IMG/VR virus record: IMGVR_UViG_3300042934_000980
Location: 62,001 to 126,000 of that record
From: a virus
Reading direction: 5' to 3' (one strand)
DNA: 64,000 nt
Part shown: positions 1-47,258 of the stretch, one piece after another
How positions within the stretch are numbered: the first letter of the stretch is position 1
Layout of the letters: each line of letters begins with the position of its first letter
Notes under the pieces: generated by a model
Seen by the model: the letters and a program-made list of their open reading frames with translations, nothing else
Told to the model about the DNA's origin: nothing
The model's database searches: none
Position numbers and translations under genes: made by a program

Positions 1-1960
1 CGTGGAAGGTGACAAAGTCTTCACCGGGGTAGTCCTTTTGGAACATGCTCAGCATGACGTCGCACATGTTCACCTTGGAGAAGAAGAACAAGCACTTGGT
101 GCCCGGCTCTCGGACATCGAGGTAATAATCCTCGTACGCCTTCTTAGCCACGTCGTAGTAGAACCGGGTCGTGACCTCGTTCTTAAGGATGCTGTCCTCC
201 CACGTCAGGTCATTGTAGCTGCCAAACTGCATCGTCTTTAGGTTGTAACGCCTTGGGTTGATGTCGTACAGGTAGGCCACAATGTCGATGTAGTTCTCAG
301 GCTCCGGCTCTTTCAGGCGGATGTTGACCGGGAACATGATCTTGTAAATCTTGTTGATAAACGGATCGTCTGCCGTCAAGGTTGCCGAGAGCAGCAAGAG
401 CTTGGGGAAGTTGCCGTACATCAACGAGATGCACACCTGGTGGATGGCCTCATGGCCTTCGTCAATGATCCTGAGGCCGCAACCTAGGCTCTTGTACAGG
501 GTGTCTAGGTCAGGGGCGTCCGGATCTTTCTTTTCATTGCGCAGGTACACATCGATCCGCGTCATGGTCAGAATAATGATCTTAGGATTCACCGCCCCCG
601 ACGCCAAAACCCCAGGCAGCCGGCTTAAGTCCTGTTCCCAGAGCAGCACATCCTCAGGTGCAAGCTTAAGGATATCCCCCAGCGCTTTAAGCCACGTGGT
701 CACGTACCGCGGTTGCACCGTGATCAACGTACGGGTGCCCATTAAGAGCATGGTGCGCAAGGCCATGTAAGTGTTGTGAGTCACCACATAGTCTTTGACC
801 ACGTACAGCTTGCTTGGGTGCTCCACGGAGATACAGCAGGTCTCCTGAGGCATCCCACGGTTGATGGAAACAATCTTGAGGGCCAAGTCAGGGTTATGAT
901 GACCACGCGCTTCAGACACCCGCTCAGGGCGTGTGAAGAACATCTCCGGGTATGGGAACTTGATGTACACGTTCGACAAGCGCGGCGTGGAGTTCAGTTC
1001 CGCAATCCCACCCAAACTCCACACCAGTTGCTGCACAAAGCTGGCCGTGCGTGGGTACTCGGTGGTGTAGGTTAAAGTGCCGTCCTGCTCCACGTACCCC
1101 CGGTTGTCCATTAAGCCTTGGAGCAGCTCCAGCCGTTGGACGGTAGAACCTTCCAAGTACTTCTCACTGAGCACTTGGTCTTCGAACCCGACCTTGTACA
1201 TGTTGCGGGCTTCGTTGCGTGGCGCTTTGCGCTCACTGTCCACCAACGGCAGGTAATAGGTCTTGCCCGACTCCACCATCTGTTGCGTGGTCAGGGTGTG
1301 GAACCCACCTTCAGCGGTGCGCACCTCCCACTGATGCTCAGGACAGCAAGTAACGTTACGACCGTCCTCCAAGATGATGATGTAGGTTTCAGTTCGGCCT
1401 TGGGGGTAGACACCGGTGACGTAGGTGTGCGAACCGTCCTGCGTCATCACCAGGTCATCCACCTGCAAGTTGCCGATGGGCACCCAGCCATTGATGGTGC
1501 GCACCGGGGTGTCCACGGCTAAAGCTTTGCCGTAGCCGGTTGAGGCGTTGTTGATCTTGATAGGCCCTGGGGCTAACTGGTAGTTGACCCACTCGTCCTG
1601 ACCTGGGCGGGTGTTTTCATACCCGGGCTGAAACTCAAAGCTTGCAGGTAACCCAAACAGCTCAGGTTCTTCGAACACTTGAATGCGGGTTGGGTTATAG
1701 CCTCGGTGCTGGGCGAAGTCTAAGAACTCCTTGAGCAACGAGGACGGAATGCGGTATTCGGTTTTGTCAAAGTTGGAACGGGCAAAGACGTGGGTCACCT
1801 TCCACGTTGTCTTGTTACGCACACCCGGTACAGGGACCTTACCCACCTTAAAAAGATGAGCTTTGCAAAAGGGCGTGATAACCTGTGCAAGGAACTCCCC
1901 GTAGAACCCAAAGATTCTCAGGTAGTTATGGGCACGGGCAATATGGGCTACATGTCTCAT
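1..1960 (-). CDS. SF2 DNA/RNA helicase, intein-containing, C-terminus cut by window edge
   Basis: The reading frame is open from the ATG at 1960 to the window edge (653 codons). AAAGG precedes the start. The P-loop GYGK(T) is split by an intein (residues 146-396); after splicing it reads STGYGKTYMAL. The Walker B/DEAD-box equivalent is DEGH (about residues 500-503) and motif III is SAT (about 525-527), so this is a superfamily 2 helicase or translocase. It lies just downstream of the non-virion RNA polymerase beta' C-terminal gene, matching my recollection that phiKZ gp75 follows gp74. A role in transcription or replication inside the phage nucleus is inferred. The C-terminal helicase lobe lies partly outside the window. 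Confidence 0.85.
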   Translation of the reverse strand, partial: MRHVAHIARAHNYLRIFGFYGEFLAQVITPFCKAHLFKVGKVPVPGVRNKTTWKVTHVFARSNFDKTEYRIPSSLLKEFLDFAQHRGYNPTRIQVFEEPELFGLPASFEFQPGYENTRPGQDEWVNYQLAPGPIKINNASTGYGKALAVDTPVRTINGWVPIGNLQVDDLVMTQDGSHTYVTGVYPQGRTETYIIILEDGRNVTCCPEHQWEVRTAEGGFHTLTTQQMVESGKTYYLPLVDSERKAPRNEARNMYKVGFEDQVLSEKYLEGSTVQRLELLQGLMDNRGYVEQDGTLTYTTEYPRTASFVQQLVWSLGGIAELNSTPRLSNVYIKFPYPEMFFTRPERVSEARGHHNPDLALKIVSINRGMPQETCCISVEHPSKLYVVKDYVVTHNTYMALRTMLLMGTRTLITVQPRYVTTWLKALGDILKLAPEDVLLWEQDLSRLPGVLASGAVNPKIIILTMTRIDVYLRNEKKDPDAPDLDTLYKSLGCGLRIIDEGHEAIHQVCISLMYGNFPKLLLLSATLTADDPFINKIYKIMFPVNIRLKEPEPENYIDIVAYLYDINPRRYNLKTMQFGSYNDLTWEDSILKNEVTTRFYYDVAKKAYEDYYLDVREPGTKCLFFFSKVNMCDVMLSMFQKDYPGEDFVTFH
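773..1525 (-). other. Class 3 intein (251 aa) in helicase Walker A
   Basis: This in-frame insertion lies between GYGK and TYMAL of the host helicase. It starts ALAVDTPVRT, with Ala where most inteins have Cys or Ser. It ends VVTHN, followed by Thr. The diagnostic class 3 triplet is visible: Trp66 two residues after the block B His64 (EHQW), Cys231 at block F (CCISV) and Thr249 before the terminal His-Asn. In class 3 inteins the block F Cys starts splicing. RLELLQGLMDNRG (about 131-143) looks like a decayed second LAGLIDADG motif, and no first motif is seen, so homing activity is probably lost. Confidence 0.88.
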
Positions 1961-2018: not shown

Positions 2019-4031
2019 TTAAGTTGCAGCGAGACTCCAGAAACTTTCGAGTACCGAACCCTGACGGTCCATCATCATAAAGGTCTTGGATTCGTTCAAC
2101 ACGTTTTGCTGTTTCTCGTAAATAAACAACCCACCGCCTCCACGGTTGGTGATACAGTTGACAAAGCTGGTGAAGTATTTATCGCCTGGACCATTGACCA
2201 TGGCATAGCTGAGGTTGTTGGGGTCTTTGGCCAAGCAGCAATACAACAGCGACTCGATGTGCACCGCATTGATGCCGGTGATCTCTTGGTTGATCAAGGT
2301 CCAGAACTCGGACAAGACTTCACCAAAGATCTTAGGCGTCACCACTTGGTTGCGCCAGGCGGTGTTGCGTTTGTTGAACGTCATGAAGTTCTCAACGCGG
2401 GCGCGGTGCATGTCCAAGTCTTCGCGGGTATACGGCAAGGAGAACATCGGTGCCAGCGAATTCCACTCACTGAGGTCAACCGCAATGAAGCGCTTGTCCA
2501 CTACCTTCCAGCCGCGATCCAGCACATACTTAAGGAAGTCCAGACTGAACCTGGCATTACGACTGGACACCGAAGTGGTCGCTGCGTGCTGCTGGGTAGT
2601 CTTACCGCCCATCATGATGTCTTCGACTTCATAACGGAACGTCACTTCACTGAAGTACGGCAGCTTGTCAAGCCCCACACCGTCAAGCATGTCCAGCGAC
2701 TTCAAGTCACTCAGGCTCTTAACGATGTCCGAGCGCAGCACCAACTCAGAGCCGGGTGTACAGATTTCTTCACGCAGGAAGATCTCATCGCCGTTACTGA
2801 AGATGATGTCCTTGTCACGGGTATGGGGAACAAATGCTCGCGACGTTGCATTTCGAATGAAGTGCTTGGTCGACAGCATTTTCTGACCCATCGGGTTACA
2901 CAGGGTGGTACCGGAGTACATGCCTGCGTTGGCGTCTTTGCCCATGATGGTGTTGTGCGGGATGGCCGACTTCATCATGCCGTAACATTTGCCACACGGT
3001 TTTCCGGCATTGGTAGAATTACAGAACGCCATGGAGCGCACGGTAACCGTATCGCCGGCTTTGATCTGCCCGACGTTGGTCTGGTCGATCAGCACCACCG
3101 CACCATCGTCCATGATCCGGAACTTGCCCATCAGCGACAACGCAAAGGCTAAGTTCGGGATCTTGATCGGCATGCCCACGGTGGTTCCACAGTCCACCAG
3201 ATGCCCCACACTGTGCAGCGGCGCACTGAGCAGGTGAATCTTGCGGTGGAACCATTCAGCGTCCTTCAAGCCCTTACCGTTGTTGATCAGGGATTTACCG
3301 GAGGCGTTACGCTCACCCAAGCTGTCCGCCACGTTGGTGATGCCGTGGGCGTACGGCACCATCACCGGGTTGGGGTTAATGGTGTTGTTCAAGTCAAACA
3401 CCGCCCCGCGAATGATCGTGGTTTGGAACGCTTGGTTGATACTCACCCCACCGGTACGGGCCAACAGCGCCATGGTGTTGTGGTTCAGGCTCGGTGCTTC
3501 CTTGATGTAGGTTGCAAAGAGCTTTTCACCGTCGTCGATGCTGACCTTCTTGTCGAGGATCTGCTGACGAATATCCATGATGCCGTCGTCTTCCATGAGC
3601 TCGGCCACAGACTCAGCGGTAGCCGAAATCTCATAGCCTTCACTCATGACCACGATCAGGTTGTTGAGCTTGTTCTGCCAGATGTGGATTGCCCGCTTGA
3701 TCCGATCGTTTTCCACCGGATCGTTGATGTGCGGCATCACCTGCTGCAAAGTCCAGTTCAGCGGGGTGGCAAGCGTCTTGTCCTCATAGACCACGTTCTT
3801 GCCACCGTCCGCTTTGTTGGACGGGATCAGCTCATCGACGCTGTACTTAAGGTCGTTGTACATCCGGTGAACGACCAAGCCCTGCCAAGTCAGCATCAAG
3901 GCAAAGGTGTCGGAGTTAACCTTCTTACCGAAGTCATCCTCCACCTGTGCCGCTAACCGCAACCCCCGCCAACGCAGGACTTGGGATTCATCCAGGTTAG
4001 CAAAGTCGCGTAGCTTAATGTGCATACCCAT
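2019..4031 (-). CDS. Non-virion RNA polymerase beta'-like C-terminal subunit (phiKZ gp74-like)
   Basis: This 670 aa protein resembles the C-terminal half of bacterial beta'. It has a SLGERNASGKSLINNGKGLKD stretch like the beta' bridge/trigger region, a KPCGKCYG zinc-type knuckle, and an AGMYSGTTLCNPMGQKMLS segment matching the conserved region that in bacteria reads AAQSIGEPGTQLTMRTFH. It starts MGMHIKL, and its ATG immediately follows the TAA of the upstream beta gene (TAAATG, with GAGG upstream), so the two are probably translationally coupled. The pairing with a beta C-terminal subunit matches phiKZ gp71-73/gp74 of the five-subunit non-virion polymerase that transcribes middle and late genes in the phage nucleus. 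The catalytic NADFDGD motif is in a separate gene at 17111-18751. Confidence 0.88.
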   Translation of the reverse strand: MGMHIKLRDFANLDESQVLRWRGLRLAAQVEDDFGKKVNSDTFALMLTWQGLVVHRMYNDLKYSVDELIPSNKADGGKNVVYEDKTLATPLNWTLQQVMPHINDPVENDRIKRAIHIWQNKLNNLIVVMSEGYEISATAESVAELMEDDGIMDIRQQILDKKVSIDDGEKLFATYIKEAPSLNHNTMALLARTGGVSINQAFQTTIIRGAVFDLNNTINPNPVMVPYAHGITNVADSLGERNASGKSLINNGKGLKDAEWFHRKIHLLSAPLHSVGHLVDCGTTVGMPIKIPNLAFALSLMGKFRIMDDGAVVLIDQTNVGQIKAGDTVTVRSMAFCNSTNAGKPCGKCYGMMKSAIPHNTIMGKDANAGMYSGTTLCNPMGQKMLSTKHFIRNATSRAFVPHTRDKDIIFSNGDEIFLREEICTPGSELVLRSDIVKSLSDLKSLDMLDGVGLDKLPYFSEVTFRYEVEDIMMGGKTTQQHAATTSVSSRNARFSLDFLKYVLDRGWKVVDKRFIAVDLSEWNSLAPMFSLPYTREDLDMHRARVENFMTFNKRNTAWRNQVVTPKIFGEVLSEFWTLINQEITGINAVHIESLLYCCLAKDPNNLSYAMVNGPGDKYFTSFVNCITNRGGGGLFIYEKQQNVLNESKTFMMMDRQGSVLESFWSLAAT

Positions 4032-18843: not shown

Positions 18844-20853
18844 TTAGCCGAACGACTGATTCAGGCCGTAGGAGGCGCTGATGTTGCTGCCGTTCGGGTT
18901 GTTGGAACCCACAGACGCGTAGGTTGCCAGACCGGCGCCCGGTGCGTACACCAGGTTGTTGGTGCGGAAGCTGCCCAGGTTGTTGGCGACGTTCAGAGTA
19001 CCGATGCCGTCCATTGCTTCGCCGATTGCCGACATCAGCAGCGGATCCCAGATGTGAGTCTGGGAGAACGAGTTGATGTGCACCGCGCCGTCGAAGACGG
19101 ATTGGTTCAGCTCGATACGCAGCTTCTGGCAACGCGCCTTGAAGTCTTCCTGGGTCATGCCGTACTGGGTGGCCAGGTATTGCTGGATGGCCTGAGTACC
19201 GCCTTTGCCCTTGAGGTGACCGAGCATCATCTCGTCCAGCTCCTGGGTGTTCAGCTTCTTGCCACCGATCTCGGCCAGGCCGTTCACGGTGATCACCGGA
19301 GTACGGTGCAGAACCGGCAGCGATGGGTTCCAGCCGCTGTTGGCCTTGATGTTGCGCTCGATGATCGCGCTGAATGCGTTGTTGGACAGCGCGTTCAGGA
19401 TGGCGACCATGGTCTGCACTTCTTCCTTGCGGTTCTTGCCAGCCAGACCGACCAGGAAGTTCTGGATCGGTGCATGCGGGCCGCACGGGTTGATGTTGAC
19501 CTGGAAGGTTGCATGCGGGCTGACGTTCTGACGGATCCACTGGTTCACCAGATCGGTGTCGGATACGGTCTTCTCGGTCAGCACGATGCGGTTCGGGATC
19601 ACGCCGACTTGCGCCAGCATCTCGTCGATACGCACTTCCAGGTTGGCCAGGTTACCGCGAGCGCCGACACTTTGCTTGCGCAGAGCTTCAGCGAACACGA
19701 AGTTGTTGTTGGTCGACATCAGCAGGTACAGACCGAAGAAGTACGGGTACAGACCTTGGTTGTACGACATCATCTCACCAGCCACCGCTTCTTCGATGGT
19801 GATGACCGGCGCCAGAGGACGGTAGCCCTGTGGGTAGATACCGCCGCCCAGGTTCATCATGCGCTGCAGAGCTTCCTGCTGCTGACGACCGCTGCTCGCT
19901 TGCAGACCGGCAATGTAAGCCTGGAACGATTGCGCGTTCAGGGAAACGGTTGCGGTCACACGGGCGATCTCTTTCGAGTTGGCCGACGATGCCTGCTGGT
20001 TGTTGATGTTGTTCATGGTGGAAGCGATCACTTCCATGTTGGCTGCCGACAGAGTCTTGCCAACGGTGACGCGGCCGCTGATGGCCGAGACGCGCGCTTC
20101 AGCATGACCGTCTTTGCCGTACGGAGTGGCCTTGAGGGCGAACGGGGAAGGCAGCTCAACGCCACCCACAGCCAGTTCTTGCGGAACCTTGACCAGGATC
20201 GCTTCTTCCCACTGACCGGTCAGGTAGGCCGCCAGGGTGTGAGCACGGTCTTTGACTTCGCCAGCTTCTGGGTGATCCAGCATTTCCAAGTCGACCACGA
20301 CCAGGTTGATGACGGTAACCAGTTTGCTGCCTTTGGCCTCGCCCACTTTGGTGTAGTGTGCTTTGAGGTTGTCGACCAGGTTTTTGTCAGCGTAGCTAGC
20401 CGGAGGCAGCGGCGCGGATACGGACTGCGAAACGCCGCCGTAGTTCATGCTGTTGACGCGGATGTACTCGGAGCTGATGCACAGCTGACGGTTGGAGAAC
20501 AGCGCACCCATGACGTACATGGTGCCGCCGATTTCGCGGTAGAAGCACAGGCCAGGCAGAACAGGGCTGATCGCAGAGGTCATGTTTTCGACTTCTGGGA
20601 TGATGCGCAGTTGCAGTTCGGCGGTGGTGGAGTTCTTGGCGCGCTTGTAGATTTCTTGGATCTGTTCCAGGGTGTCGGACACTTCGCGCAGGTTGCGGTT
20701 GTCAGAGGTCATGGAAGGGATGGTGAACAGACCGCCGAGGCCGCCTTTAGCCAGACCCGAAGTCAGGGTTGCGTTCGACGCTTCTTCTGCGCTCGGGTTC
20801 TGCTTGTCTTTTTCCCACGAAGAACCTGGGTTGTTGCCAGTATTTACAGCCAT
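18844..20853 (-). CDS. chmA: Chimallin, major phage-nucleus shell protein
   Basis: The protein has 669 aa from MAVNTGNNPG (GGAG upstream). A frame extended to 20922 lacks a ribosome site. Size, composition, the flexible Ser/Asn-rich N- and C-terminal tails (ending SASYGLNQSFG) and its position beside the gp55-like polymerase gene match chimallin (phiKZ gp54, 201phi2-1 gp105). Chimallin assembles into a flexible lattice enclosing replicating phage DNA and excluding host nucleases. It stands alone between its own early promoter (20952-20959) and a UUCG terminator, fitting a very abundant early product. No enzymatic motif is expected or seen. Confidence 0.9.
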   Translation of the reverse strand: MAVNTGNNPGSSWEKDKQNPSAEEASNATLTSGLAKGGLGGLFTIPSMTSDNRNLREVSDTLEQIQEIYKRAKNSTTAELQLRIIPEVENMTSAISPVLPGLCFYREIGGTMYVMGALFSNRQLCISSEYIRVNSMNYGGVSQSVSAPLPPASYADKNLVDNLKAHYTKVGEAKGSKLVTVINLVVVDLEMLDHPEAGEVKDRAHTLAAYLTGQWEEAILVKVPQELAVGGVELPSPFALKATPYGKDGHAEARVSAISGRVTVGKTLSAANMEVIASTMNNINNQQASSANSKEIARVTATVSLNAQSFQAYIAGLQASSGRQQQEALQRMMNLGGGIYPQGYRPLAPVITIEEAVAGEMMSYNQGLYPYFFGLYLLMSTNNNFVFAEALRKQSVGARGNLANLEVRIDEMLAQVGVIPNRIVLTEKTVSDTDLVNQWIRQNVSPHATFQVNINPCGPHAPIQNFLVGLAGKNRKEEVQTMVAILNALSNNAFSAIIERNIKANSGWNPSLPVLHRTPVITVNGLAEIGGKKLNTQELDEMMLGHLKGKGGTQAIQQYLATQYGMTQEDFKARCQKLRIELNQSVFDGAVHINSFSQTHIWDPLLMSAIGEAMDGIGTLNVANNLGSFRTNNLVYAPGAGLATYASVGSNNPNGSNISASYGLNQSFG

Positions 20854-20951
20854 GGTGTTACTCCATTTGCTCTGAAGAATTTGGGTTAGGTAGTGCTGAA
20901 TCGTGTTGGTGTGATGCGTCAACTATAGATCTTCTAACGATTCACCCCTAA

Positions 20952-34320: not shown

Positions 34321-37300
34321 TCACGCTGCTAGTGCGTTGTTGCGGGCAATCAACATCCGTTTGTTGCGTTCGATTTTCGCCTCCTCCAGCAAGACGTCGA
34401 TGGTCATGAACCGTGCAGCCTCTGGTGGCAACACACGTGTCAGTTTCCTGATCTCAGCTTCAAGCCTGACGGCCAGCAGGTTGTCGTTGGTCTGTAGAAG
34501 CTCCTCGGTCAACTGCTGAGCACGGGCCTTGACTTTGTTCAGGAACTGGGCAACGTGGGGCTCCAGCTCTGCTTGCTGACGACCGTTAGCCTGGTTCATG
34601 ATGTTCTTGGTATCGGTTAAGGCAATGCCTGCCGAAATCCCATACAACGACTTGTTCATCCCAAGCTTGATAAACCAATAGGTCAACAGCCAGCTGATCA
34701 CCAAGTCATCGTGCATCTTCGTATCGTGGTCAATCCGCCCGCCTTTGGTGCGCAGGTTGATCAACTCATCGGCCAGCTTGTCGTAGTTAATCCCGTAACC
34801 GGTGTTAGCCACCGCTTCTTGGATCAGCCCGTACAGTGTTTCACGTGACCGACTGGTGGTGTTAAAGCCAAAGTACTGCTTAAACTTCAGGTAGAAGTTC
34901 TTCTGGCGATACGCAAACTTGGTGTTTTGAACCTCCTTGAACTCCTTCTCATGGCTGACCGTGTCTTGGTAGATCTGGTTATAGATCCGGGTGAACGGGT
35001 CCATGCCCTTTGCCGGCAACATGATCAACAGGTTATCGATCATGTGGTGGGCGTAGTTGCGTTCAATCACCAGCAGGCTGTTGTTCAACACCCCCAACAG
35101 GTCCACAATGATGGAAGTCACATCGTCCAAGAAGGCCAACGGGTAACGCCCCACCCCAACCACCTTGCCCGTCTTCATGCTGCGAATGATGATGGTGCAG
35201 GCGTCCTTGTTGATAGCAGAGGAGGTGTCCACCCCGATCAGGAAGTAATCGTTGTAGTCTTTACGCCCCATTTCAATCAACTGCTGCTGCGTGACGAAGA
35301 AGTCCATGAACAGGCCGCTGGAAACGTACTCCTTGCTCCAGACCACCTGGTTTTTGCAGTTGTTGATGGCCTCACGCGTCACGTCATCAAACAGGCGGTT
35401 CTCCCCGTCTTCCACCCACATCAACAGCAAGTCGATCTTAGCCTTGCTAAGGCTTAGGTTCAGGCTGTCGATCGTTTCCTTTACCCAATCTTTATCCTTA
35501 CCCAACTGCATGTAGTTGTACACCATGGCCACTGAAGGCGCGGTGGTTTCCTTAGGCGAGGCACGCAATAGCCGTTCTTTCAAATGGCTTTCGCTAAACG
35601 AGTCAAAGAACTTCTCCCGCCATTCGGTTGAGTTCATCAACTTCTCAAACATGAACTTCCCGCTTGGGTGCAGGGTGGTGTTTGGGGTGGTGATGAAACT
35701 GATCCCGTACGGCTTGCCTTGGATGCGGGCGTTGGCCATGGCGGTCAGAGCCGACGGCGCACAGCCGTTGATGATCTCCTCGATAAAGCTGATGTACGCA
35801 GGCTCGTCATAAGTCGTGGTTTCAACCGTCAAACCCCGCCCCAAGTCCCCCGCCGCATCACGCCCCATTTGCGGTACGTTGATGTTCAAGCTGTTGGTGT
35901 ATTCCTCACCAAAGGCCTTGTAGGTCAGGTAGTTACCGCTGTCCTTGTCCCGCCACGTGGGGTTAACCAAGTAGCTGGGCATACAGGTACGGATCTTCTT
36001 GACCGCGTCAATGAACTGCGCCCGGTTATCGTTTTTCAGGGTGATCAGGTGACTCTTGTAACCCCGCCCGTTGATGTAGGTCAGCCAGAAGTTAATCACC
36101 TGCACCGACACCGTGTTGTGGGTCACGATAAAGTCGTCGGTGATGTACAGGTGATCTTGGCTGTCCACCTCAATGCAGGTGGCCTCATCGTCACCGCTAA
36201 AGGCGATGCTTTCCAACCACAACCGATTGTCCACCTCAGGCTGCTTGTCCTTACGGAAGCGGAAATACGCCAGCTCCTTAGGCAAGGTGACTGTCAAGGT
36301 ATCCCGGATAGGCCGTGCCGTTCCGCCAAGTCCTCGAATCACATACGCCAGCTGATTGGCTATAAGCTCGTTAGGCGCCTTTAAGGTCAAAGTCTTACCG
36401 ATCTTCAGCCCTTCATCGAAAAACGCCTGTACAAGCTTCAGGCGGTCTTCTAGCGCACCTTCGAGGTAGTGCTGGGGCAACCCCACGCTTAAATCGAAGT
36501 TGAACGCGTTCCCGTCCCGGCGTTTAACCGTACGCAGCTTCTTGTCCTTGCTGGTCATCAGGGTCTGGGGCAGGACTTCTTCTAAGTACGCGTCTTGCTC
36601 CTTGCTCAGGCTTCGCCCTTGCAGGTTGCCTTCAACCAAGCCTGCATTGACCATCCAGCCAAAGAGGTACGGGTCCAAGGTAAACTTCTGCTCCCGACCC
36701 TTCTCAGCTTTGATCAGCGGCGCTTCATAGGCATGCCCTTGCGCCAGCCCGGTGATCAGATCCGCTGTGGTGTAGTCGTCGGTAATCCCACGGCGTGAAG
36801 AAGTGCCTCGGGAATAGTCCTTCAACGTCCACAGGTGTTCAGCGCCCGCCTCGGTGGTGCGTCCGTCACTGAAGGTCAGAGTGTACATCCGAAGCTTGCC
36901 TTGGGGGTGTACCCCAATCACCGTGCTGGTCTTACCGTTGGGCGCAATCAGCACATCCCCGGTACGCACCTCCCCAATCTTCTTCCACACATCCTTGAAG
37001 ACCAGGTTCCCGCTCTTCTCGCACTTGACCCGAACCAAGCTGCGGTTAGGCTGCATCTTGCCCTGCTGACGGGGCATGATCATGTAGGTGGTGATGTGGT
37101 TTAAGTAGTTCCAGATAAAACTGATGTTGCCCCGATTGGCCATAAAGCTTTGGTCGGGCTTGAGCATGCACACTTCACGCAGGAAGTACCAGAAGTTAGT
37201 CCGGCACTCTTCGGCGATCATGAGCTTTTGCTCGTTGGTCAGATCGTCAGCGTGCGGGTCCACCCCTTGCAGCATGCGGTTATTGAGCTGCAGCAGGAAA

Positions 37301-44176: not shown

Positions 44177-46342
44177 ATGACCATCTTCAACCAGATTGTA
44201 CCTGGGAAAGTTAACAACCGGGGGATCAACGACAAGTCGATCCCCGAGTACACGGTTAACTACCCTGTTTACCCGCTCCACCTCCCGGTGGTCTCGCTCG
44301 TCACTGCCAAGGGCGAAATTGCCGGCGAGAAAGGCACCCAGTTCATCAACCTTGCCAACTTCGATCAGATCTTCGGCAAGGTGAATGACCACAAGACGCC
44401 GTACTACAACCCCATCGCACTGCTGATTCAACAGCTGGGTCTGGGTGGTCAGTCGGTGATCGGTGTGCGTCGTCTGAGCGCCAACACCGCCATGTCCCGT
44501 GTGGCTCTGTCTGCCTTCGTGCAGAAAGTCACCGTCCAAGACTTCGAACGCGACCTGTCGGGCGCCTTCAAGCGTGACGAGAACGGCGACAAGATCGCAA
44601 CCGGTACCACGTTCGAAGGTATCAAGATTTCTGTCAAGCCTGACCCAGAAGCTGCAAAAGGTCAGTATGGCAAACTCGCCAATCGCGTTATCCCAGGCAC
44701 TCCTGCCCAAGGTGACACCCCCGCCGTGCCTGAAATCCAGGTGTTCCCTCTGGTAGAATACGCAGCCGGTATCGGCGACGCGTACAACGCCAGCGGTCTG
44801 AACATGGGTGTGACCAACTCGGCGCTGAACTGGAAGTCGGTTTCGTCTTTCGTCAAGGCGACCGGTGTGTTCCCGTACGAGCTCAAGATGTTCACCGACA
44901 GCGACGCTGGCGTGCGCACCTACAGCAAGACCACCGAAAAGCGCGAAAGCGCGCAGTTCACCTTCTTCCCAACTGAACTGAATGGCACTCAGTACAGCGT
45001 GAAGCGTGGCGTGGGCCTGTTCACCAACACCAACCAGAACCGCAAAGTGGTGCCAACCCCTTCGCCGTTCAAAGAAGCGTACGTCTACGATACCAACATC
45101 GACACCATCTGCCAGCTGATGTACGTCGTGGAGAAAGACCACAACGACACACTGGTTGAAGTGAGCGATCGTCCGTACCAGCAGATGAACTTCCTGACCT
45201 GCACCAACCACCTGGGCGCGCCGTACTACGCCGTGGTCGGCGACGACACCCCGCTGTGGGACCTGTCGGGTTCGGTGAAGTCTTCGGGCGGTATCAACCC
45301 GTTCTACAACGACAAGGGCGAACTGCCTGACTACGTGACCAAGCCGGAGATCAAAGATCCGTTCGGTTTGCTCGAAGGCGTCAAGCAACCGCTGTCGTCC
45401 ACCCAGGCCTGGGAAATCACCAACAAACTGTTGGCTGCCGACCTCAAGACCTACGTGAACGGCTCGGAGATCAAGAACTACACCCGCAACCGCCAGTCGG
45501 TCATGTGGGACGTAGGCTTCAGCAAAGAAGTCAAAGACATCGCGGTTCAGCTGCTCGCCAGCCGTCGTGACATCTTCGTCTTCCAGGACGCCACCGTCTG
45601 GGACCCAACCCTGGGCAACGACCTGGGCACTGTGTACTCGCGCTTCTCGTCGCTTGCGGCCGCAGCTCGGATGTACCCAGAGTCTGAGCAGTGGGGCACG
45701 GCAACCTGCCGTTCGGCGATCAACCTGATCGAAGCGAAACTGACCAACGAGCTGACCGGTAGCTACTTCTCCGGTAACCTCGACCTGGCCTACGCCTTCG
45801 CCGCCTTCGCGGGCAACAGCGCCGGCATCATCGTTCCAGCAGCTTCGCCGGACCACGGTGATAACCGTATCCTGCGCACCATGCACTCTCCGAACATCGA
45901 GTTCGAAGAAGACGAGATCGCCAACGACAACTTCGAGAACGGCGGCATCACGCTGCGTCCGTACGACGTCGAACAGCTGTTCCGTCCAGCCCTGATCACC
46001 GTTTACAACAACGATGATTCGGTCCTCAAAGACGCAGTCACTGCGTTCCTGTGCGTGTGCATCGAGAAGATCGTGCAAGACGAGTGGAACACTGTGTGCG
46101 GCGACACCAGCTACAGTGCGGCCAACTACGCAGCGCTGGTCAAAGACGGTGCCGAGCGTAAGCTGCGTGACCGCCTTGGCGGGCTGGTACCACAGATGAC
46201 CGTGGAGACGTCTTACGACGAAACCCGTCCAGGTGGTCGTGCGATCCTCAACACCGTCGTGAACGCTTACTTCAACAAGGGTAAGTACATGATGAACATG
46301 GACTTGTACGCTTACAACGAACAAGACCTGGCCACAGCCTAA
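44177..46342 (+). CDS. Contractile tail sheath protein (phiKZ gp29-like)
   Basis: The protein has 721 aa, close to the phiKZ sheath. The N-terminus (MTIFNQIVPGKVNNRG) followed by FINLANFDQIFGKVN and PYYNPIALLIQQLGLGG fits the sheath N-terminal domain. The C-terminal part ends with GRAILNTVVNAYFN and MNMDLYAYNEQ, like the handshake domain that links sheath rings. The tube gene follows 13 bases later, the usual sheath-tube pair. Contraction of the sheath drives the tube into the host envelope. Plus-strand late expression. Confidence 0.85.
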   Translation: MTIFNQIVPGKVNNRGINDKSIPEYTVNYPVYPLHLPVVSLVTAKGEIAGEKGTQFINLANFDQIFGKVNDHKTPYYNPIALLIQQLGLGGQSVIGVRRLSANTAMSRVALSAFVQKVTVQDFERDLSGAFKRDENGDKIATGTTFEGIKISVKPDPEAAKGQYGKLANRVIPGTPAQGDTPAVPEIQVFPLVEYAAGIGDAYNASGLNMGVTNSALNWKSVSSFVKATGVFPYELKMFTDSDAGVRTYSKTTEKRESAQFTFFPTELNGTQYSVKRGVGLFTNTNQNRKVVPTPSPFKEAYVYDTNIDTICQLMYVVEKDHNDTLVEVSDRPYQQMNFLTCTNHLGAPYYAVVGDDTPLWDLSGSVKSSGGINPFYNDKGELPDYVTKPEIKDPFGLLEGVKQPLSSTQAWEITNKLLAADLKTYVNGSEIKNYTRNRQSVMWDVGFSKEVKDIAVQLLASRRDIFVFQDATVWDPTLGNDLGTVYSRFSSLAAAARMYPESEQWGTATCRSAINLIEAKLTNELTGSYFSGNLDLAYAFAAFAGNSAGIIVPAASPDHGDNRILRTMHSPNIEFEEDEIANDNFENGGITLRPYDVEQLFRPALITVYNNDDSVLKDAVTAFLCVCIEKIVQDEWNTVCGDTSYSAANYAALVKDGAERKLRDRLGGLVPQMTVETSYDETRPGGRAILNTVVNAYFNKGKYMMNMDLYAYNEQDLATA

Positions 46343-46355
46343 GGGGTAAAGCAAC

Positions 46356-47258
46356 ATGGCAAATACCAACTACCCGCATCGGGATAACGATACGCTGCTG
46401 CCCCAGAGCGATCCGTTTGTCCAGGCGCTGGACCTCAGCAAACGCCCCGTCATCAACGCCGAGTCTGGCGGTATGTATGGCTGGGCGGGTAACGTCTTCG
46501 AGTACATCAGTGCTCAACCACACGTCTCGCAACAGAGCTGGTGCATCCTGCTGAGCTCGCCTGCGATGTTCTCCAAGCTGCCAGGTGGCGATCGTCTGCA
46601 CGCGCTGACCAAGGCGTTCTTCGAGAACCGCTCGCAGTCCTTCGAAGGTCTGCAGGACCGTACCGAACACGCCTTCGGGCGTCAGGAATGGACTGGTCAC
46701 GTCATGTCCATCCCAACCGGTGCTACCCGTACCCTGGGTTCGGTGACCCACACCGTGATCGACGTTGAAGGCGAGTCCTTCACCAAGCTGATCAAGATCT
46801 GGGGTCAGTGGGGCGTCATGGACCCTGAAATCCAGAACGCCAAGCTGGTGATCCTGGACGATCCGGGCGACATGCTGCTGGACGACGTCTCTGCGGCGGC
46901 TTGCTACTTTGAGCCTACCCGCAACATGCGCGATGTGGCTCACGCTGCGATCGTGGTCGGGATGATGCCCACCACCACCGTGCCGATCGAGCTCAAGCGC
47001 AACAAGGCAGAAGAGAACACCATCCGCACCATTCAGATGGAGTTCACCGGGGTTGTTGAAATGGACACCCTGGCGGTTAAGCAGATTGCTCGTCAACTGC
47101 TGGCCCTGCTCCCGCTGTACAACCCTGACGCAGTTGATGCGCCAGAAGGTTTCCGCAGCCGTACGTCGGTTCTGGAAGGTCTGCAGAACGCTGGTACCAT
47201 CGAGCGTATGACCAACCAGAAAGCGAAGGTGACTTCGGCCACCACGTACATGGGTTAA
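46356..47258 (+). CDS. Tail tube protein (phiKZ gp30-like)
   Basis: The protein has 300 aa (MANTNYPHRDND, AAGGGG upstream), close to phiKZ gp30. It is directly downstream of the sheath gene and ends at a bidirectional terminator. Alternating beta strands (TRTLGSVTHTVIDVEG, TIRTIQMEFTGVVEMD) match the beta-barrel tube fold. Stacked hexamers would form the inner tube through which DNA, internal proteins and the virion polymerase pass. Confidence 0.8.
   Translation: MANTNYPHRDNDTLLPQSDPFVQALDLSKRPVINAESGGMYGWAGNVFEYISAQPHVSQQSWCILLSSPAMFSKLPGGDRLHALTKAFFENRSQSFEGLQDRTEHAFGRQEWTGHVMSIPTGATRTLGSVTHTVIDVEGESFTKLIKIWGQWGVMDPEIQNAKLVILDDPGDMLLDDVSAAACYFEPTRNMRDVAHAAIVVGMMPTTTVPIELKRNKAEENTIRTIQMEFTGVVEMDTLAVKQIARQLLALLPLYNPDAVDAPEGFRSRTSVLEGLQNAGTIERMTNQKAKVTSATTYMG

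Follow-up and report, generated by a model that had tools for sequence, protein, structure and literature searches.

A probable class 3 intein in the Walker A motif of an EL-like jumbo phage helicase keeps one half of a dead homing endonuclease

A phage helicase gene that is interrupted by 251 codons inside its P-loop raises the questions of what the interrupting element is, how a working helicase could be made from such a gene, and why the element still carries half of an endonuclease that has lost its catalytic acid. The gene lies at the edge of the window, the stretch of 64,000 bases analysed here, which corresponds to bases 62001-126000 of a virus record 220,495 bases long. Other genes of the window code for a nuclear shell protein, for beta-type subunits of RNA polymerase and for a divergent DNA polymerase of family B, a gene content that points to a nucleus-forming jumbo phage; by helicase, the closest annotated records are those of Pseudomonas phage EL and its kin, to which the source of the window is probably related. 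The helicase open reading frame (766 aa) is read from the minus strand; its first base is window position 1960 and its last lies 340 bases past the window edge. With residues 146-396 removed it becomes a 515-aa SF2 helicase of the UvsW-like phage family, with a match to the phrog_16 DNA helicases (2.8e-40 over residues 11-743 of the full frame) and to Helicase_C (3e-6), a Walker A motif GYGKT, a DExH box DEGH and the QxxGRxR motif QMIGRLRD, the last of which is located in the C-extein beyond the window edge. The removed residues are exactly window positions 1525 to 773, flanked by ASTGYGK and TYMALRT, and the helicase motifs are intact on both sides. The features of the locus are, in window positions:

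18844-20922, minus strand: nuclear shell protein (phrog_4795, 3e-133)
1526-1960, minus strand: N-extein of the SF2 (UvsW-like) helicase, ending in NNASTGYGK, the first part of Walker A (phrog_16)
773-1525, minus strand: predicted class 3 intein, 251 aa, Ala1 to Asn251 (alignments, profile, tree, AlphaFold model with pLDDT 95.6 and pTM 0.92)
1523-1525, minus strand: Ala1 (GCT), no nucleophile at the intein N-terminus (sequence)
1334-1336, minus strand: His64, block B:10, invariant in 12 and in 31 aligned inteins
1328-1330, minus strand: Trp66, block B:12, the W of the WCT triplet (alignments)
833-835, minus strand: Cys231, block F:4, the C of WCT and predicted initiating nucleophile (alignments)
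779-781, minus strand: Thr249, block G:5, the T of WCT, within VTHN (alignments)
773-778, minus strand: His250-Asn251, blocks G:6 and G:7 (sequence)
770-772, minus strand: Thr+1, the first C-extein residue and at the same time the Thr of Walker A (sequence, orthologue alignment)
1-772, minus strand: C-extein inside the window, with the DEGH box, continuing 340 bases past the window start

Class 3 inteins are defined by the lack of Ser, Thr or Cys at position 1 together with Trp at B:12, Cys at F:4 and Thr at G:5 (PMC3196547; PMC5222942). The insert shows all of these features and in addition the His at B:10, the His-Asn end and a hydroxyl residue (Ser/Thr, here Thr) at +1. The initial annotation had proposed a class 3 intein at 773-1525 that begins with Ala, cuts the P-loop at GK/T (the slash marking the insertion point) and carries Trp66, Cys231 and Thr249 as its WCT triplet, and all of this was borne out by the residues, the profile, the fold and the tree: the N-extein ends in GYGK, the C-extein starts with T, the first codon is GCT, and in alignments to solved class 3 inteins Trp66 falls on B:12, opposite the HQW of 6bs8, and Cys231 on F:4, opposite the Cys of VRCVEVD in 6bs8. 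It is Cys231, not the adjacent Cys230, that matches the invariant F:4 Cys in the alignment.

A profile built from 31 viral relatives matched the class 3 structures 6bs8 (8.6e-18) and 6rix (9.9e-17), and since E-values of 9e-18 to 1e-16 are reached, the likeness to class 3 inteins is not due to chance. The top match of this profile was 6riz (5.8e-21), a gp41-1 intein engineered to carry WCT; unengineered gp41-1 came below it at 2.8e-16, and the Hint regions of other class 1 inteins matched weakly. In a tree of 109 columns, whose outgroup is limited to four class 1 rows, one of them partial, 45 class 3-like inteins including that of the window were set apart from the four class 1 inteins with a support of 99/97. 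The AlphaFold model shows a Hint fold, for which Foldseek retrieved PI-SceI and class 3 DnaB inteins (TM score normalised to the target of 0.86 for class 3). NCBIfam gave no match to the intein and Pfam sub-threshold Hint matches at most, so family libraries alone would miss it; similarly, a single-protein scan of viral contigs with the intein gave no match, and the viral relatives therefore had to be found by alignment-based searches. Taken together, we are confident that the insert is a class 3 intein, predicted to splice in cis, that interrupts the Walker A motif (GK/T) of the SF2 helicase of an EL-like phage and has a dead endonuclease; one half of the latter is probably kept for folding or splicing, and the intein is probably inherited with its gene. 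In kind, the helicase intein itself is ordinary.

The unusual part is what is left of the endonuclease. The initial annotation had recognized only a decayed second LAGLIDADG helix, LLQGLMDNRG. The remnant of motif 2 is indeed there, but it is part of a whole folded half-domain rather than a single helix, and the term decayed does not apply to the relatives, in which this region appears to be under purifying selection. The relevant features are:

905-1201, minus strand: retained second half of the LAGLIDADG endonuclease domain, residues about 109-207, predicted to be catalytically dead (AlphaFold secondary structure, Foldseek, alignment with two-motif inteins)
1097-1126, minus strand: second LAGLIDADG motif LLQGLMDNRG, with Arg142 at the position of the catalytic acid
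1007-1018, minus strand: SLGG (Ser170-Gly173) of the half-domain (alignments)

The predicted elements of the half-domain are a helix (128-142), strands, a second helix (158-170), further strands and helices up to residue 207, and its best Foldseek matches are PI-SceI entries. Gly172-Gly173 were invariant in a first survey of 12 sequences, and SLGG is largely kept in shortened inteins. In two-motif relatives from this helicase site the motifs read YxxGxxLGDG and GLxDTDG, and neither acid is missing. In the window intein motif 1 is deleted and motif 2 lacks its acid, as expected for an inactive LAGLIDADG enzyme; at the same time about 100 aa of half-LAGLIDADG are folded in the model, which sets it apart from endonuclease-free mini-inteins. 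Sequence and model together thus show a homing endonuclease that is to all appearances dead but retains a folded second half.

The same state of affairs is not confined to the helicase. A search of the whole 220,495-base record detected three class 3 inteins in total and none beyond those, each located at GK/T of a P-loop ATPase; besides the helicase intein these are:

36115-37056 of the window, minus strand: class 3 intein in the large subunit of the terminase, 314 aa (RQQGK/M...THN/T; Met1; Trp76, Cys294, Thr312)
153183-153995 of the record (L028:3183-3995), outside the window: class 3 intein of an SNF2-type helicase, 271 aa (AGSGK/A...THN/T)

The terminase intein has kept the length of the LAGLIDADG fold and lost both catalytic acids; the SNF2-type intein has the WCT residues and has lost its endonuclease acids as well. 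The set of three sites is also occupied in EL, which has an acid-intact RNA polymerase intein in addition, and in the relatives G001-G003 and G005. Among G001-G003, the dN/dS ratio of the endonuclease remnant was 0.06-0.14 for the terminase intein and 0.09-0.17 for the SNF2 intein, with upper confidence limits of at most 0.33. We also considered that the three inteins might be recent copies of one another within the genome; this was ruled out by the tree, in which each groups with its same-site counterparts in other phages and not with its genome neighbours.

For the helicase intein itself, the four nearest relatives (L030-L033) share the endonuclease deletion of the window intein (PYLIG..EKYLEGS). 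In pairwise comparisons among L030-L032, dS was 0.8-1.2 in helicase and remnant alike, and dN/dS was 0.019-0.022 in the remnant versus 0.044-0.084 in the helicase. With a ratio of about 0.02, below that of the helicase itself, the remnant in these phages is conserved, and the values are inconsistent with free decay. Between the window copy and its relatives dS is saturated and the remnant is less alike (41-42% identity) than the Hint part (58-67%) and the extein (55-66%); the constraint on the window's own remnant is thus either weaker or beyond measurement by substitution rates. Between the window copy and L033, identity is 61-66% for the helicase, 58-67% for the Hint parts and 42% for the remnant, whose 112 positions align without a gap.

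In order to avoid a sample chosen by its endonucleases, viral contigs were searched with the N-terminal Hint sequence only, and the results were reduced to 136 inteins of less than 75% identity. Cys F:4 was found in all 136, Thr G:5 in 135 and Trp B:12 again in 136 of 136, the latter partly favoured by one search pattern. Both endonuclease halves are present in 125 inteins, 116 of which have both acids. The remaining 11 are shortened, and in 10 of these the second half is wholly or partly kept; the first half alone was never retained, and one intein has neither (sign test 10:0, p = 0.002, an approximation that treats the lineages as independent). This one-sided loss, together with the low dN/dS, suggests a role of the second half in folding or splicing. 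Two relatives of about 200 aa and one intein of 151 aa demonstrate that most or all of the half-domain can go. Four viral inteins, three in SF2 helicases (L221, L230 and L234; AGK/C...THN/T) and one in a GroEL-like protein (L267; GDG/C...THN/T), combine Cys1 with the full WCT triplet; such inteins, which have the class 1 and class 3 nucleophiles together, bear on the origin of class 3.

The half-domain would persist if the splicing domain folded or spliced poorly without it, a mutualism between the Hint and the endonuclease parts that was described earlier for other inteins (PMC8966425). Alternatively, it could be inert debris that has no role in splicing and awaits deletion late in a homing cycle. 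The loss of motif 1 and of the catalytic acid would fit this explanation, as would the higher divergence of the window's remnant relative to its Hint part and the existence of relatives of 198-203 aa at the helicase site. Debris should, however, not show a dN/dS of 0.02 as in L030-L032 or of 0.06-0.17 as in the terminase and SNF2 inteins, nor a gap-free alignment of 112 residues between the window and L033, nor should deletions in shortened viral class 3 inteins have spared the second half in 10 cases versus 0. We thus regard debris as rather unlikely and favour a retained half-domain that assists splicing.

How the intein came to its present distribution can be judged from sites that lack it. 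The helicases of the phages RisingSun, Miami, OBP, pTD1 and ZPAH34 are continuous across GK-T/S, and that of G007, which is 58% identical to the window helicase, has an uninterrupted GK-T. At the DNA level, EL and Elvirus GXNNE2 are 97-98% identical, and GXNNE2 has an exact empty helicase site; the clean GK-T junction by which the initial annotation could be checked was hence found in both proteins and DNA. These two phages also differ in the RNA polymerase gene next to the helicase: EL has a class 3 intein there and GXNNE2 has none, while the terminase and SNF2 inteins are kept in GXNNE2. The RNA polymerase subunit intein of EL (EL 45446-46543, 366 aa) is of class 3, has two motifs with intact acids and adjoins the helicase. 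In the window, the RNA polymerase subunit gene beside the helicase (2019-4031, minus strand) has an intact, empty GERNASGK-SLINNGK site, which is the site of the EL RNA polymerase intein.

Across 24 sampled phages, which were chosen partly for carrying inteins, the helicase site is occupied in 17, and presence and absence require seven changes on the helicase tree. The occupied sites include two-motif forms of 345-364 aa and shorter forms of 198-203 aa. Residue +1 is Thr in every helicase gene that bears an intein. Of four close pairs, three have Ser in the empty allele, a hint that the flank is converted along with the intein. The three pairs are L009 versus L019, L011 versus L018 and L006 versus L021 (Thr+1 with the intein, Ser without). 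For L030-L033, the intein and extein trees have the same order; the helicase of another phage, L052, falls inside the clade of L030-L033 and the window, but its intein is of the EL type, and inheritance at the helicase site is therefore not purely vertical. In the lineage of the window, the intein has probably been inherited with the gene rather than spread by homing.

Could the helicase intein still move, despite its dead endonuclease, by co-conversion with a nearby homing element? Such co-homing has been discussed (PMC10643990). The adjoining acid-intact RNA polymerase intein of EL, the near-identical GXNNE2 that lacks exactly both inteins, the seven changes on the tree of 24 and the distribution of Thr and Ser at +1 are all in line with it. 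Yet the window phage has no RNA polymerase intein, all three of its inteins are endonuclease-dead, and the difference between EL and GXNNE2 could equally reflect simple recombination with an inteinless relative. Co-homing is thus an unlikely explanation here, and inheritance with the gene is preferred for the window lineage.

Based on what is known for its class, splicing would start with an attack of Cys231 on the Lys-Ala1 bond, aided by His64 and Thr249; the chain would then be passed to Thr+1 and Asn251 would cyclise. Joining of the exteins would restore GKT, and ATPase activity is expected only after splicing; from the split P-loop, we may fairly infer that the helicase is inactive before. 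The insert might instead be a splicing pseudogene such as Arth_1007, a decayed class 3 intein (PMC3196547), in a phage that tolerates a broken helicase, and splicing is here predicted from sequence. This is very improbable, as all catalytic residues are intact, whereas Arth_1007 lacks Cys F:4 and His B:10 (PMC3196547), as the helicase motifs are preserved on both sides of the insert, and as dN/dS is low in intein and extein of the relatives. That the insert is a class 1 intein with coincidental residues can practically be dismissed: although class 1 gp41-1 scores equal to class 3 inteins in a single-sequence search, the class 1 reaction cannot start from Ala1, the B:12 and F:4 residues of native gp41-1 are Phe and Asp, its engineered WCT version outscores it, and the class 3 clade is well separated (99/97).

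The jumbo phages offer a natural series at a single site, with empty, two-motif, half-domain and about 200-aa forms, and this series makes the idea of mutualism between Hint and endonuclease parts testable. Evidence for selection that keeps a dead endonuclease half questions the view that such remnants only decay. It is conceivable, and we propose it tentatively, that in nucleus-forming jumbo phages class 3 inteins have made the dead second LAGLIDADG half an obligate part of splicing, so that loss is one-sided and halts at the half-domain, and that these inteins have long been held in the Walker A motifs of several motor ATPases per phage, where they might serve as timing locks. Should the activity of three motor ATPases in a single phage depend on splicing, this might, speculatively, affect when nucleus-forming phages replicate and package their DNA.

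The closest known counterpart is the intein in the EL helicase, which is presumably listed in InBase; a literature search for an intein under the name phiEL found none. The EL intein (gp40, DNA helicase; NC_007623) is at the same site of the same gene, has the class 3 residues, has lost the first LAGLIDADG half and kept the second, and shares a basic residue at the position of the motif 2 acid. In contrast to the window intein, it begins with Met1, has another deletion junction, is only about 37% identical and falls into another lineage of the intein tree. Shewanella phage FishSpeaker, Raoultella phage VB_ZK_P1, Erwinia phage Rebecca and others have inteins at the same helicase site with WCT and Thr+1, but these are full-length (345-364 aa) with both LAGLIDADG motifs and acids. 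Class 3 inteins are a familiar group, with a count of 1701 (PMC7891396), and insertion after the Walker A Lys is a known habit of inteins, described for DnaB (PMC5222942) and for MCM-a and VMA-b (PMC10643990). The Msm DnaB1 and Mch DnaB1 inteins (6bs8, 6rix) thus resemble the window intein in this position (GVGK/ST in DnaB; PMC5222942), in Ala1, WCT, His B:10 and THN, and in their Hint fold; unlike it, they reside in a bacterial DnaB and are endonuclease-free mini-inteins of 139-145 aa. The gp41-1 intein is close in sequence, with Thr at G:5 and THN, but is of class 1 (Cys1, Phe at B:12, Asp at F:4). PhoVMA and TliVMA also occupy a Walker A site, VMA-b (PMC10643990); the PhoVMA endonuclease is dead, and TliVMA splicing depends on its own endonuclease domain (PMC8966425). 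Both are, however, class 1 inteins from archaea, and their endonuclease domains are complete, with both halves; the half-domain form of the mutualism, and the comparative evidence for it, are new here.
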